Below are positions 2,926-32,125 of a stretch of DNA of 47,319 nucleotides, piece by piece. The stretch comes from Nitrospirae bacterium JdFR-86 (lineage in GTDB: Bacteria > Nitrospirota > Thermodesulfovibrionia > Thermodesulfovibrionales > JdFR-86). The stretch's first letter is position 1, and every line of letters starts with the position of its first letter. The notes under the pieces were generated by a model. The model ran no database searches. It saw only the letters and a program-made list of their open reading frames with translations, and was not told where the DNA came from. The translations under genes were made by a program, and so were the position numbers. The stretch lies in NCBI GenBank assembly GCA_002011815.1, contig MTOV01000007.1, forward strand, positions 88,152 to 135,470, in the 5' to 3' direction.

Positions 2926-4635
2926 ATGAAAACGTTTAAGCTCATAAACAATGAGTCAGGGATAGCGCTTATCATCGCCCTTACGATATTGCTTGCGCTT
3001 ACTGTGCTCGGAATTGCTGCGTTGACCACTACCAATCTTGACATCATTATCTCAAGCAACGAGCGCATGTCTTATGAGGCGCTCCAGCTGGCAGACGCAG
3101 GAATAGACAGGGTGCTTGCAGACCTTTTAAAAGACTTTGCAGATACCTCCGATGACAATGCGGACAAATGGGCAAACGACAACTTCTATACACTTGCCTA
3201 CGGTAAAATTACACTGCCTTCGATTTATCATCCTTCTTTTGCCAATCTTGCCAGTTGTGGAAGCAGTTTCAACTGTCCGTCAGACAGTGAGTGGGCGACC
3301 TATGGCGTTGACCCTTATGGTGGCATTCAGCCTCTTGGGGAAAAAGGCGGTTACAAAGTCTTGATAATGCGCGACGCAAATAACGACAAAGAGGTGTATG
3401 CTCTTTCAAGGGCGTGGCTTGACAGAACCACTGCTGGAACAGACTCAGGCGGAACACTGGCAAGCGCAGACAAAAGAGTGCTTCTTTATCTTAAAGCCGT
3501 GAGAACTTCCCCGTGGGATAGTGCTATATTTGCAGGCTCAGGATACTTAGGCACGGTTATAAACGGGAACATAAATATAGCAGGCACGATTCACATTCTC
3601 GGCACAGGGCAGACAGGAGATGTTCTTGCCCTGTCAGGAACCGCCCTGGTAAGCAACACCTATGAGGGAGTACCAGAGTTTTCAGACACTGTCTATGTAC
3701 AATACAGGATCCCTCCTGAGCCGGTTATCAACGGTAAGAAAGACCTTCAGGCGTATGTGAGGATTAAAAACGGTACTGCTTACATAGCAGGTAATGCCCA
3801 TCTTGGCCAGGCTGATACAGTGGCAGATGAAAAACGAACACTTGCAGGTATTTACATTACCGACGGATTTTCTGACGACACAAAGGATAGTGTCTTAAAG
3901 ACCAACATATATGCAGACAACTACGACTACAATATTCATGGGCGACAGCCTGAGGATTATGACCTCGGTGATAAAATCCAGATGCCGTCCATGAGTGATG
4001 AATACAAAGACCCTACTACAGGTATCGTTTACAGCAGCTACTCAGCGTTTGTGAATGCTACTGCACTCAGGGTGATACCGAGTAATTGCAAGATTAACAC
4101 TGCCAGTTTTACATGTAAAGACCCGGACGGCAATGTGGTTGACTGCTCTACAGGTGTAAACGGCAATTCTTTCCAGATGACCGGTGACTCCTTGACGATA
4201 AGCGGCTTGGTGGCTTTCAGGAGTGAGGACCTGCCCGGCTGTGCGGACATCGAGTTCGATGGCAAAGATTACTCCACAATGACTTATACGGGAAGAGGGA
4301 CAATATATACCGATCTGAATGTTGAGATGGAGCAGAGCCTTGTGCCGGCAGGACAGTTTGCAACAGAAGATGTTGTTGGTATTGTGACCTCCGCTAATAT
4401 ACACGTCAACCCTAAGTCGAAGAGTGAGATTATGGCAGCTCTGTACGCTGCAAACACCATTGCAGTCAGCTACCAGACTGTTTTTGCAGGAACACTCGTC
4501 TCCAATTACTTCGACTTGACACAGGTGCCGACAATACTTCAGGTGCCTGAACTTTCAGATAATTTGCCGCCAGGAATGATTGCATCAGAGCCTGTTTACA
4601 GTCTTGCAAAGGTTATCAGAAAAGAGCAGTGGTAA
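2926..4635 (+). CDS. pilX: PilX-like type IV pilus minor pilin
   Basis: 569 residues. The N-terminus has the PilX_N layout: a short basic leader, then NNESGIALIIALTILLALTV, a hydrophobic helix of about 22 residues, followed by a helix containing the family-typical SSNERMSYEALQLADAGID stretch. The long remainder is beta-rich with repeated Gly/Ala/Asn turns and ends in a probable extracellular region. The start is well supported: AAGGAGGTGAG lies just upstream of the ATG. PilX-type minor pilins sit in the inner membrane before assembly and prime or decorate the pilus. Placement directly after the Ig-like pilin-type gene suggests one minor-pilin operon; pilB and pilC are 34 kb away in this window. 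It is longer than PilX of model species (about 180-220 residues), as often seen in Nitrospirota and Deltaproteobacteria. Confidence 0.75.
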   Translation: MKTFKLINNESGIALIIALTILLALTVLGIAALTTTNLDIIISSNERMSYEALQLADAGIDRVLADLLKDFADTSDDNADKWANDNFYTLAYGKITLPSIYHPSFANLASCGSSFNCPSDSEWATYGVDPYGGIQPLGEKGGYKVLIMRDANNDKEVYALSRAWLDRTTAGTDSGGTLASADKRVLLYLKAVRTSPWDSAIFAGSGYLGTVINGNINIAGTIHILGTGQTGDVLALSGTALVSNTYEGVPEFSDTVYVQYRIPPEPVINGKKDLQAYVRIKNGTAYIAGNAHLGQADTVADEKRTLAGIYITDGFSDDTKDSVLKTNIYADNYDYNIHGRQPEDYDLGDKIQMPSMSDEYKDPTTGIVYSSYSAFVNATALRVIPSNCKINTASFTCKDPDGNVVDCSTGVNGNSFQMTGDSLTISGLVAFRSEDLPGCADIEFDGKDYSTMTYTGRGTIYTDLNVEMEQSLVPAGQFATEDVVGIVTSANIHVNPKSKSEIMAALYAANTIAVSYQTVFAGTLVSNYFDLTQVPTILQVPELSDNLPPGMIASEPVYSLAKVIRKEQW

Positions 4636-11178: not shown

Positions 11179-13005
11179 ATGGAATTCTTTGACGTCGTCT
11201 TTCCCCAGAACCTTAATCCTCTTACCTACAGGGTTTCTGATGCTTTAAAAGGCGCTGTGCGTCCCGGGATGCTTGTAAGCGCAGAGCTTAAAAAGACTGC
11301 AAAAAAGGGAATAGTTCTAAGACCGGCGCTTACTCCCCCTCAAGGTGAAATCAAGGAAATCAAGGAAGTAATAGGACAGGAGCCTGTCTTAAGCAATGCA
11401 ATGCTCAGGCTTATGACATGGATGTCCGAGTATTATTTTGCAAAAGAAGGAGCAGTGCTTAAAAGCATGCTTCCAAGAGAGTTCTTCGAAAAGATAAAGC
11501 CTGTAGGGCAGGCAATTAAGAAAGCTTCTCAGGCAACAGAAGACAGCCCGGATAACCCTCTGCTAAGAAGCGTAAGGGAAAGCATAAGAAAGAAATACTA
11601 TAAGACATTTCTCTTTCATGCCTTCAGCACCCATGAGGAGCTTTCCTTCCTTACTGAGTTAATAAAGGGTGTGCGGAATATCATAATTCTCTGTCCTGAC
11701 ATCGCGGAGATAAGGCATATAGAGGGGCTTATAAAGGAGTCGGCAGGCGAAAGGCTTACAGTCTTTCACAGCGGTTTAAGCAAAGGCAAACGCACTGAAG
11801 CGCTGCAGAAGATAACCTCTGGTGTGTCGGACATCGTGCTTGGCAGCCGCTCTGCAGTGTTTGCCCCTCTGAAAGAGGTATCCCTCATAGCAGTCCTTCA
11901 TGAAGAAAGCACCGCCTATAAAGAGGAAGGAGGCGTAAGGTTCAATGCCCGGGACATAGCCGTAATGAGAGGCTATCTGGAGGGGGCAACGGTTGTCCTT
12001 TCTTCTATATGTCCTTCGGTAGAATCTTATCACAATGCAAAGACAGGGAAATACACGCTTCTTGAAGCAGAGCGCTCTTTTTTGAGACCTAAAGTAAGGG
12101 TTGTTGATTTAAGAAGCACGGATTCTTTTATCTCCAGGACTCTGCGCAGGGTGTCAGAGGCAAGAATTAAAAAAGGCGAGCGCGTGATGTTCATTGTAAA
12201 CAGAAGAGGCTACTCCATGCTCCGGTGCAGAGACTGCAATCATTTTGAGACCTGCAACAACTGCCACATTCCTCTAGTGTTTCATAAGGAGGAGAAGGTT
12301 CTCAGATGCCGTTACTGCGGTCGTAAAAACACGCCCCCTGAAGTCTGCCCTAAATGCGGAGGGTTGCTTGTGCCAGCGGGAGCCGGGCTTGAAAGGGTAA
12401 AGGAAGAGCTTATGACATTAAACCCTGTAGGTGTTGAACAGAGGTCTGAATTAAAAGTGCTCGCAGAGACCGACACCAAGCTGGTCATAGGCACAAAACT
12501 TCTTGCCAGAAGGCACGAACTCAGGGAAGGGTTTTCACTTGCAGCTGTCTTGAATGCAGACGCTTATCTTTACGTGCCTGACTTCAGATCCAAAGAAAGA
12601 GCCTATCAGGAGCTTGTTTACACTGCTGAAAAAGTAGCCTCTGGCGGAGAGCTTTTTATTCAGACGTTTAATCCGCGGGCAGCCCTTTTCAATTATATAA
12701 GGAGATTTAATTTCAGGGGGTTTTATGAGAAGGAACTTTCGGAAAGGAAGTCGCTCATGTATCCTCCGTTTTCCCGCATGGCGCTCTTGACAGTTGAGGC
12801 AGACACTCTGCCGGAAATCACTGTGAAGAACAACAATACAGAGATATTAGGTCCTGTGCCTTCTGTAACGAAGCGTGGAAAGCATGTGTGGAAGATACTC
12901 TGCAAGGCATCTTCAAGAAAAGACCTTGGCAGGGCAGCAAAGGAGATTCTAAGACGGCTTAAGGGTTTTAAGGTAAGCGTTGATGTTGACCCTATATCAG
13001 TTTAG
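11179..13005 (+). CDS. priA: PriA-like primosomal protein with degenerate helicase motifs
   Basis: 608 residues (E. coli PriA has 732). The N-terminal 3'-DNA-end-binding domain (about 1-100) and the zinc-binding insert are recognisable, with all eight cysteines at 350, 353, 359, 362, 377, 380, 390 and 393. NADAYLYVPDFRSKERAYQ and the C-terminal YPPFSRMALLTVE block are also typical. The ATPase core has decayed: the Walker A region (normally TGSGKTE) reads FHAFSTHEE at about 146-154, the DEEH box reads LHEES at 240-244, and the motif VI region (normally AGRAGR) reads TAEKVAS. It should therefore not hydrolyse ATP, though it may still load the replisome. PriA of Deinococcus is a known helicase-deficient precedent. 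The start is ATG, apparently leaderless. The 3' end overlaps ribF by 14 bases, convergently. Confidence 0.85.
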   Translation: MEFFDVVFPQNLNPLTYRVSDALKGAVRPGMLVSAELKKTAKKGIVLRPALTPPQGEIKEIKEVIGQEPVLSNAMLRLMTWMSEYYFAKEGAVLKSMLPREFFEKIKPVGQAIKKASQATEDSPDNPLLRSVRESIRKKYYKTFLFHAFSTHEELSFLTELIKGVRNIIILCPDIAEIRHIEGLIKESAGERLTVFHSGLSKGKRTEALQKITSGVSDIVLGSRSAVFAPLKEVSLIAVLHEESTAYKEEGGVRFNARDIAVMRGYLEGATVVLSSICPSVESYHNAKTGKYTLLEAERSFLRPKVRVVDLRSTDSFISRTLRRVSEARIKKGERVMFIVNRRGYSMLRCRDCNHFETCNNCHIPLVFHKEEKVLRCRYCGRKNTPPEVCPKCGGLLVPAGAGLERVKEELMTLNPVGVEQRSELKVLAETDTKLVIGTKLLARRHELREGFSLAAVLNADAYLYVPDFRSKERAYQELVYTAEKVASGGELFIQTFNPRAALFNYIRRFNFRGFYEKELSERKSLMYPPFSRMALLTVEADTLPEITVKNNNTEILGPVPSVTKRGKHVWKILCKASSRKDLGRAAKEILRRLKGFKVSVDVDPISV

Positions 13006-27215: not shown

Positions 27216-28721
27216 TTATCTGTTCTGTTTGTCGAGCAGCCTCAGAAATGCCTCAACTGCCTCAGGGTCGAATTGCGAGCCTGCATGTCTTGTAAGTTCT
27301 GACACTGCATACTGAATGCCGGGTGAGATTCTATATGGCCTGTCTGTAGTCATTGCATCGAATGAATCAGCCACATGGAGTATTCTTGCGCAGAGGGGAA
27401 TCTCTTTTCTCTTGAGTCCGTCAGGGTATCCTTTTCCGTCAACCCGTTCGTGATGGTGTCTGACTAATGCAGCTATTTCTTCCAGTTGTCTTATGTTTTT
27501 AAGGATTGTTTCTCCATAAACAGGGTGTTTTTTTACCTTTTCGAATTCTTCTTCCGTAAGTCTTACGGGTTTATCCTGGAGGTGGTCGTAAGTGCCTATT
27601 TTCCCGATGTCATGCAGCAGTCCTGCAAGATGGACGCTTTTTATAATTTTTTCGTCAAGACCCATCTCGATTGCAATGTGTTTTGCATACGTGCTTACAC
27701 GTTCGGAATGACCTTTCATCCACAGACTCTTTGCATCAACAGCATGCACGAATGCTCTTATAGTAGAGTCGAACATAGCCTGCTGCTCATTGTAGTGTCT
27801 CGCATTTTCAATAGCTGTTGCCGCCTGTCTGCCTATGAATTCAAGGAGTATCAAATCGTCTTTTGTAAATCGTCTTCCAGGTGTAAATCCGAATACTCCA
27901 AGCACACCAAGAGGTTTGTCCAGGGTGATTAGTGGGACGGCAAGGAGAACGTCTGGAGGCAGCAGGCAATTTTCGACAATGACAGACTGTCCTGTAGTGA
28001 TTATATCTTCTGTGATTTCATCAATACCTTTTTCAGCTATTGTCCTTTTGCCGGCCTCTGGCATATTGTGAAAGCAAGGATAACTGAGGGTGTTACGGTC
28101 TTTATCCAGCAGTGCTACTGTAGCAGCATCGGCATGCAGTGCAATTGCTGCGTCTTTTACAATTGTCTTAAGCACTTTTTCAGTCTCCAGAGAAGACGAA
28201 ATGTCCATGAATACACTGTTTAATACCTGAAGCTCAAACAGGTATCGTTTAATTTCATCTTCTGCCTGTTTGTGTCCGGTAATGTCATGAGCACAAACCG
28301 TTACCTTTGCAAATGTTCTCTCATAGCCTTCTGGAACAGACCACCTTACTGCAATGTGCTTTTTCTCTCCAGCCAGAGTCCGTATAACGCCTTCGCCTTC
28401 AAATATGGTCTTGCCCTCGGAAAGGGCAATGAGTTGTTCCTTGAACATGTCGTATGATTCCATACGGAAAATCTGGTTTAGATTTTCTATAAGTTCTTCT
28501 TTGCTTTCTGCTTTATACATCTGCAGGGTATATCTATTCACATCTATAACTTTTGTCATGGCTATACAGCGGGCTACAACCTCAGGATGGCTCTCAAGAT
28601 ACCTCCTCAGGTCTCTGACTCCTTCGGCTTTCAGCTCATCTATATATTTTTTGATGTCAGAGAAATCTACAATCCAGAGGGAAACCAGAAAATCGTTAAA
28701 TAAACTGTGATATTGTTGCAT
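27216..28721 (-). CDS. PAS-GAF-HD-GYP domain phosphodiesterase
   Basis: 501 residues. A PAS-type sensor (about 1-155, ending AHDITGHKQAEDE) is followed by GAF (about 180-320) and HD-GYP (about 335-497). The HD-GYP core has LLHDIGKIG, the HHHERVDGKGYPDGL signature and DAMTTDRPYR, with the ligands needed for a metal centre. Such proteins degrade cyclic di-GMP or related cyclic dinucleotides. No transmembrane helix is present, so it is cytoplasmic. The PAS domain begins almost at residue 1, shorter at its N-terminus than usual. A good minus-strand promoter lies at 28755-28783. Confidence 0.9.
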   Translation of the reverse strand: MQQYHSLFNDFLVSLWIVDFSDIKKYIDELKAEGVRDLRRYLESHPEVVARCIAMTKVIDVNRYTLQMYKAESKEELIENLNQIFRMESYDMFKEQLIALSEGKTIFEGEGVIRTLAGEKKHIAVRWSVPEGYERTFAKVTVCAHDITGHKQAEDEIKRYLFELQVLNSVFMDISSSLETEKVLKTIVKDAAIALHADAATVALLDKDRNTLSYPCFHNMPEAGKRTIAEKGIDEITEDIITTGQSVIVENCLLPPDVLLAVPLITLDKPLGVLGVFGFTPGRRFTKDDLILLEFIGRQAATAIENARHYNEQQAMFDSTIRAFVHAVDAKSLWMKGHSERVSTYAKHIAIEMGLDEKIIKSVHLAGLLHDIGKIGTYDHLQDKPVRLTEEEFEKVKKHPVYGETILKNIRQLEEIAALVRHHHERVDGKGYPDGLKRKEIPLCARILHVADSFDAMTTDRPYRISPGIQYAVSELTRHAGSQFDPEAVEAFLRLLDKQNR

Positions 28722-31042: not shown

Positions 31043-32125
31043 ATGTCCGACAAGGTCGAACAGCTTAATGCATTGATAGAGCTTACGGCTCTGATAAACT
31101 CGAGTCTTGACACACAGGAGATAAGGAAACGGGCTATAGAGGCAGCTACCAAGCTCATGGACGCAGAGGCAGGAAGCCTTCTGCTTGTTGATCAGGAGAC
31201 AGGGGAGCTTTTCTTTGAGATTGCCATTGGAGAAAAAGGCAACAGGCTCAAGGAAGTAAGGCTGGAGAAAGGTCAGGGCATTGCCGGCTGGGTTGCTGAA
31301 AACAAACAGCCTGTAATCATCCACGATGTCAGCTCAGACCCAAGATTCTTCAAAGGTGCGGATGAAAAAAGCGAATTTGTCACAAAAGACATGCTCTGCG
31401 TGCCTGTTATGACAAAGGAGAAGATACTAGGAGTGCTTCAGGTGATAAATAAGAAACACGGAAAATTCGATGAAGAGGATAAGGAAATTCTTGTTGCCCT
31501 TGCAAACCAGGTGGCAGTGGCAATAGAGAATGCAAATCTTTATGAAGAGCTGAAAGAGACTTTCTACGGCACGGCACAGGCACTTGCCGAGACTATTGAA
31601 AAAAGAGACCCGTACACAGGCGGGCATACAAAGCGGGTTATGAACTACAGTCTTGCCATCGGCAGATATCTGGGGCTTGACAAGACGGAGATGGACAATT
31701 TAAAACTTGCAGCAATACTGCATGACATCGGAAAGATTGGAATCAGGGACAACGTTCTTCTGAAGGAAGACAGGCTTACCCCAGAGGAGTTTGAGTCCAT
31801 GAATATGCACACAAGCTATGGTGCAGAGATTCTTGAGCATATAAAACAGCTTAAGAGCGTCATTCCGGGTGTGAAAGGACATCATGAAAAATACGATGGC
31901 ACAGGCTATCCCGACGGACTGAAAGGCACTGAGATTCCACTTGCAGCACGCATTATAGCAGTTGCCGACACATTCGACGCCATGACAACAGACAGACCCT
32001 ACAGAAAAGCCCTCAGCGCCGAAGCCGCATTCAATGAACTGAAAAAATTTGCAGGCAAACAGTTCGACCCTGAAGTTGTCGAGGCGTTCTTCAAGGCGTG
32101 GAAGGAGATGGAGATAATAGTATGA
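31043..32125 (+). CDS. GAF-HD-GYP domain phosphodiesterase
   Basis: 360 residues. A GAF domain (about 5-165, with DAEAGSLLLVDQETGELFF and GQGIAGWV) is followed by HD-GYP (about 180-355) with LHDIGKIGI, HHEKYDGTGYPDGL and DAMTTDRPYR. It is expected to hydrolyse a cyclic dinucleotide, sensing a small ligand through GAF. It begins 2 bases after trpA and its stop overlaps the next start by 4 bases (ATGA), so it is translated as part of the trp-acc cluster. Insertion of a signalling gene between trpA and accD is unusual compared with the common trpBA-accD-folC order. Confidence 0.92.
   Translation: MSDKVEQLNALIELTALINSSLDTQEIRKRAIEAATKLMDAEAGSLLLVDQETGELFFEIAIGEKGNRLKEVRLEKGQGIAGWVAENKQPVIIHDVSSDPRFFKGADEKSEFVTKDMLCVPVMTKEKILGVLQVINKKHGKFDEEDKEILVALANQVAVAIENANLYEELKETFYGTAQALAETIEKRDPYTGGHTKRVMNYSLAIGRYLGLDKTEMDNLKLAAILHDIGKIGIRDNVLLKEDRLTPEEFESMNMHTSYGAEILEHIKQLKSVIPGVKGHHEKYDGTGYPDGLKGTEIPLAARIIAVADTFDAMTTDRPYRKALSAEAAFNELKKFAGKQFDPEVVEAFFKAWKEMEIIV

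Follow-up and report, generated by a model that had tools for sequence, protein, structure and literature searches.

A PriA orthologue without helicase motor motifs, conserved across an order of Nitrospirota

The Nitrospirae bacterium JdFR-86 (Thermodesulfovibrionales) encodes a single PriA in which, as read from alignment with E. coli PriA, the helicase motor motifs have degenerated throughout, and the same key residues are missing from every PriA sampled in its order. This motorless PriA is an old and maintained state and not the product of decay. We consider it likely (probability about 0.8) that selection has kept the protein as an ATP-independent scaffold for fork recognition, from which DnaB would be handed back with the help of DciA. 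The gene, priA, was found in a stretch of 47,319 nucleotides of contig MTOV01000007.1 (assembly GCA_002011815.1), referred to here as the window, where it occupies positions 11179..13005 of the forward strand (+), begins with ATG and encodes 608 amino acids without an internal stop. Elsewhere in the window, a 945-residue ORF (64–2901, +) that matches no Pfam or NCBIfam family is followed closely by the gene for a 569-residue protein carrying a PilX N-terminal domain (2926–4635, +), and the two may be a pilus-associated pair. On either side of trpB and trpA, also in the window, are two proteins (27216–28721, −, and 31043–32125, +) whose shared C-terminal region resembles the NosR-family c-di-GMP phosphodiesterase model.

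The 608-residue protein is matched by the NCBIfam equivalog TIGR00595 with 307.7 bits (cut-off 230.35) and by the Pfam families PriA_3primeBD, Zn_ribbon_PriA and PriA_C, all above their cut-offs; in a phmmer comparison with solved PriA chains it matches at E = 6e-60. The genome comprises 2.10 Mb in 25 contigs and its completeness is listed as 100. A search of the whole genome with the TIGR00595 profile found no second PriA, the remaining matches reaching at most 59 bits. These weaker matches lie in frames of 1042, 723 and 665 amino acids, of which the 1042- and 723-residue frames were also matched as Mfd-like and RecG, respectively, and the 665-residue frame is taken to be UvrB. A second, intact PriA, the finding that would have spoken most directly against the preliminary description of this gene, was therefore rejected, and the protein is shown to be a PriA orthologue present in a single copy.

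The DNA-binding, zinc and C-terminal parts of PriA are readily recognized. The 3'-end-binding domain spans residues 7–99 (11197..11475, +; PF17764, E = 9.5e-19, 67.5 bits, cut-off 22.7) and is followed by a short linker, residues 100–140 (11476..11598, +), with low pLDDT at 108–124. Residues 141–297 (11599..12069, +) form helicase lobe 1, in which the fold is predicted to be retained and the motor motifs are lost. The cysteine-rich region, residues 350–393 (12226..12357, +; PF18319), carries eight zinc cysteines (C350, C353, C359, C362, C377, C380, C390 and C393), all of which are kept in 80/80 PriAs of the order. The C-terminal domain covers residues 498–608 (12670..13002, +; PF18074, E = 4.9e-08) and includes the YPPFSRM block at 528–534. 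Retention of the N-terminal region, the zinc site and the YPPFSRM block had been described from the sequence and is borne out by these Pfam matches and by the 80 relatives. An AlphaFold model of the protein (pLDDT 82, pTM 0.83) was compared with known structures using Foldseek; the best matches are all PriA (8fak_H, E = 1.8e-48, TM 0.82) and score well above any other structure, and the PriA fold, helicase lobes included, is predicted to be kept.

Orthology, domain order, fold and the zinc region are thus shared with E. coli PriA, an active 3'–5' helicase; E. coli PriA, however, has 732 amino acids with both the motor motifs and a winged-helix domain, whereas the window protein, with 608, has neither. 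The winged-helix domain would lie between the 3'-end-binding domain and lobe 1, at the place now taken by the linker, where the distance from P99 to L145 is 45 residues compared with 119 in E. coli. Most intact sister PriAs likewise lack this domain, and its loss is therefore regarded as separate from that of the motor; the possibility that it formed part of motor loss was rejected, as the two vary independently. Judged from these sequences, the winged-helix domain is not a defining feature of the PriA orthologue family.

When the window PriA is aligned with E. coli PriA, motifs I, II, III, V and VI all prove degenerate. Former motif I (Walker A) reads HAFSTHEELS at residues 147–156 (11617..11646, +), with AFSTHEELS standing opposite E. 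coli GVTGSGKTE, so that the Walker A pattern GxxGxGKT is absent. At former motif II (Walker B), residues 240–243 (11896..11907, +), LHEE replaces DEEH: the aspartate and the first glutamate are lost and the second glutamate remains as E242, present in 80/80 PriAs of the order. Former motif III is SSICP for GSATP at residues 275–279 (12001..12015, +), former motif V is GTKLLARR for GTQMLAKG at residues 438–445 (12490..12513, +), and former motif VI is YTAEKVA for QVAGRAGR at residues 481–487 (12619..12639, +), with neither arginine of the GRxGR pattern left. The alignment thus confirms the three losses noticed previously, in Walker A, the DEEH box and motif VI, and adds motifs III and V to them. 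Because all five motifs are lost, we infer that the window PriA would neither bind nor hydrolyse ATP and would not translocate.

Within the window's order, the PriAs of 80 genomes from 13 families were read. All 80 have lost the motif I G-K-T, the motif II D-E and the pair of motif VI arginines, which excludes chance or assembly error as the cause. Other positions are strongly conserved: W81, Y86, R258, R523, P529 and P530 each occur in at least 78 of the 80 proteins, as do E242, S280 and S283. The former motif I has acquired a consensus of its own, roughly HAPSxxYExS. The most frequent residue at each position of the window PriA reaches 59/80 for H147, 54/80 for A148, 58/80 for P149, 65/80 for E154 and 47/80 for S156, where the median for the top residue is 34/80, and the position of the catalytic lysine is occupied by glutamate in 65/80. 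Pairwise identity among these PriAs is low throughout. In comparisons of the most similar pairs from the order, dN/dS over the whole PriA is 0.10–0.32, and per domain it is mostly below 0.3, former motor lobes 1 and 2 included. It is because of these ratios, together with the new P-loop consensus, that the motorless PriA is regarded as old and maintained. The preliminary description had seen in the three losses relaxed selection on ATP hydrolysis only. In this wording the view is not supported: the lobes are under purifying selection (dN/dS about 0.1–0.3), and new residues are now conserved where the motifs used to be. The protein also has no winged-helix domain. The order also conserves W81, Y85 and K291, which align with contacts of the SSB tail. 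In Klebsiella PriA these contacts are W82, Y86 and K370, aligned to W81, Y85 and K291, respectively, and the three residues are expected, from sequence, to form an SSB-tail site.

PriA helicase motifs are reported to be well conserved, the notable exception being Deinococcus-Thermus (PMC4504706). The Deinococcus protein, which had been named as the precedent for the window gene, is indeed a pseudohelicase, with no measurable ATPase or unwinding activity, that binds single-stranded DNA, forks and DnaB (Lopper et al., 2015; PMC4504706). Like the PriAs of the window's order, those of Deinococcus-Thermus are orthologues from DciA bacteria in which motifs I and II are degenerate across the clade and the DNA-binding domains are kept; the window PriA likewise combines clade-wide loss of Walker A and Walker B (80/80) with being the only PriA of its genome. 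The two nevertheless differ in extent. Deinococcus PriA has a recognizable P-loop with lysine changed to arginine, whereas the PriAs of the window's order have a new consensus in place of the entire P-loop, and the window PriA additionally lacks motifs III, V and VI and the winged-helix domain. As the window's order belongs to a separate phylum, its loss is independent of that in Deinococcus-Thermus. To date, a motorless PriA has been shown by experiment only in Deinococcus. Actinobacterial PriA is likewise reported to have no detectable helicase motifs, and its HAMAP/UniProt annotation states that helicase domains are missing. No paper on Nitrospirota PriA was found in the literature library searched.

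Work on E. coli bears on whether PriA can serve without its motor. Assays of DnaB reloading used PriA K230A, and the ATPase is dispensable for PriA–PriB restart in vivo (PMC10175261); cells with ATPase-dead alleles of priA survive (PMC10175261, PMC4504706). Together with Deinococcus, this makes two settings in which a PriA without ATPase activity suffices. Like the window PriA, E. coli PriA K230A and K230R lack the catalytic lysine, but each is a single engineered change, whereas the order has naturally lost all motifs. In Caulobacter, DciA is a loader of DnaB and has been suggested to work with PriA (PMC9825169).

The preliminary description had called for a search for DnaB and its loaders, and the window genome was found to contain one full-length DnaB, DciA and RecG. 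No DnaC/DnaI homologue was found in this genome with the PF01695 profile, the single match being partial (profile positions 95–197) and lying in a 445-residue frame that is read as DnaA; DnaC/DnaI was rejected on these grounds, and DciA is the only known DnaB loader found there. DciA is present in 55/55 genomes tested, those with motorless and those with intact PriA alike, and the Thermus and Deinobacterium controls are positive. A switch of loader as the cause of motor loss was therefore rejected. In the E. coli literature RecG is linked with the helicase activity of PriA; loss of RecG as a driver was also rejected, since it is missing in 4/31 motorless and 1/24 other genomes, which is too few. 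None of DciA, DnaB and RecG explains the loss, because all occur in motorless and intact genomes alike, DnaB and RecG with few gaps. The genomes without a full RecG match are G007, G008, G019, G089 and G300, four of the five having a motorless PriA. In G080, G148, G170 and G274, for which completeness is listed as 94–98%, no DnaB match exceeds the family cut-off, probably owing to assembly gaps.

If PriA acts as the proposed scaffold, repaired forks and D-loops would be bound through the 3'-end pocket and a rigid body made up of the lobes, the cysteine-rich region and the C-terminal domain. The motorless protein would contact SSB and, once bound to a fork, would recruit the replicative helicase, and DnaB would be reloaded with the help of DciA. 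Lagging-strand duplex, when it needs to be opened, would have to be unwound by another enzyme, either RecG, which is present, or possibly a UvrD/RecQ-type helicase; alternatively, forks that need lagging-strand unwinding would not be restarted by PriA. The structural primosome loader suggested previously fits this picture as far as the missing motor and the retained DNA-binding, zinc and C-terminal parts are concerned; the loading step itself is one that we infer.

A point against the scaffold is that PriA of this clade has diverged in sequence, motor lobes included, which leaves room for a changed role. The protein might have left replication restart and taken on another structural function, with HAPSxxYExS providing a new site for a contact or a ligand, as the alanine, proline, glutamate and serine newly conserved at former motif I (54, 58, 65 and 47 of 80, respectively, against the median of 34) and the low pairwise identity across the order could suggest. 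We regard such a departure as distinctly unlikely, since the zinc cysteines, the fork-binding domain, the expected SSB site at W81, Y85 and K291 and the C-terminal domain are all kept, and restart would have to proceed without any other PriA in the genome. The predicted integrity of the lobe fold and the invariance of E242 could instead be taken to mean that ATP is still hydrolysed through an unrecognized site. This is highly improbable, as none of the 80 proteins retains G-K-T in Walker A, D-E in Walker B or either arginine of motif VI, and in Deinococcus the loss of the P-loop lysine is accompanied by no measurable ATPase activity (PMC4504706). The idea of a degenerating pseudogene or an assembly error, already refuted for the order, retains a negligible probability: it draws no support from the window gene, the nearest thing to it being a stop codon in the linker of a PriA from another family (L181), and it is contradicted by the open frame of 608 codons, the identical state in 80/80 order genomes and dN/dS of 0.10–0.32.

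Whether motor loss is general in the phylum had been left as a question. It is general in the order (80/80) and not in the phylum, and phylum-wide loss was rejected because intact, lost and part-decayed PriAs coexist in Nitrospirota. In the other orders of the window's class, 16/18 PriAs are intact and the remaining two, both from family f18, are part-way to loss. A further 62 PriAs from the phylum, which include one second copy in one genome, comprise 32 that are intact and 30 that are not, five of these 30 keeping D-E at motif II. The motorless families f29, f31, f36, f40, f41, f42 and f43 all fall in one class, which also contains the intact families f32–f35, f37–f39 and f44. Outgroup PriAs are intact in 76/77 cases, the single exception being truncated by its contig. 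The f18 proteins may show the motor while it is being lost. In L180 motifs I and II survive and motif VI reads QLAEKVGT; L181 has its P-loop rewritten to HIRPGIRKRE, AGRVGT and the stop codon mentioned above; in a third f18 genome, where the PriA is assembled as two pieces, GISGSGKTE is kept alongside ERVGT. Across the f18 loci (L180, L181, L244 and L245) motif VI was lost first, and one genus has both a rewritten P-loop and a stop in the linker.

The number of losses was addressed with PriA trees built after removal of the motif columns. In a careful tree of 44 rows, the window's order branches among the intact PriAs of its class (100/97), and the second motorless group takes a separate position (100/97); joining both groups costs 30.8 log units, with a weak AU p = 0.047. 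A careful tree of 53 rows needs three changes and leaves the placement of the lost family f42 unsettled, and a quick tree of 91 rows joins the two main motorless groups (SH-aLRT 90), which could be due to long branches. The residues at the catalytic-lysine position differ, with glutamate in 22/30 of the window's order compared with arginine in 14/20 of the other group. The motor has probably been lost at least twice independently in the phylum, a history that these data favour and do not prove. The alternative, a single ancient loss followed by re-acquisition of an intact PriA in sister lineages, would change the history only and leave the mechanism as it is. The joining in the 91-row tree and the unplaced lost families (f42) of the 53-row tree lend it some support; it is nonetheless unlikely in view of the separation and the rejection of one origin in the 44-row tree, the different kinds of replacement at the K230 position and the partial decay of a third family.

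A motorless PriA is of a known kind; what appears to be new, from the sequences compared, is its occurrence in a second phylum, the order-wide replacement of the P-loop, repeated loss beside intact relatives and a part-decayed intermediate. Very tentatively, and with more doubt than confidence, these features may be joined into one account, in which the motor was shed repeatedly (two to three full losses, with one family part-way and motif VI going first) to yield an ATP-free scaffold working with the ATPase-free loader DciA, the P-loop of the order having been remade into a new conserved element, HAPSxxYExS, that serves its own function. A second phylum in which loss recurs next to intact close relatives and a part-way form provides a natural comparative set, with which the purpose of the PriA motor, the circumstances that permit its loss and DciA-dependent restart without ATP turnover by PriA could be addressed. 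One genome of the phylum, G288, carries two PriA copies (L208 and L246) on different contigs, both of them motorless, which reflects either duplication or contamination.
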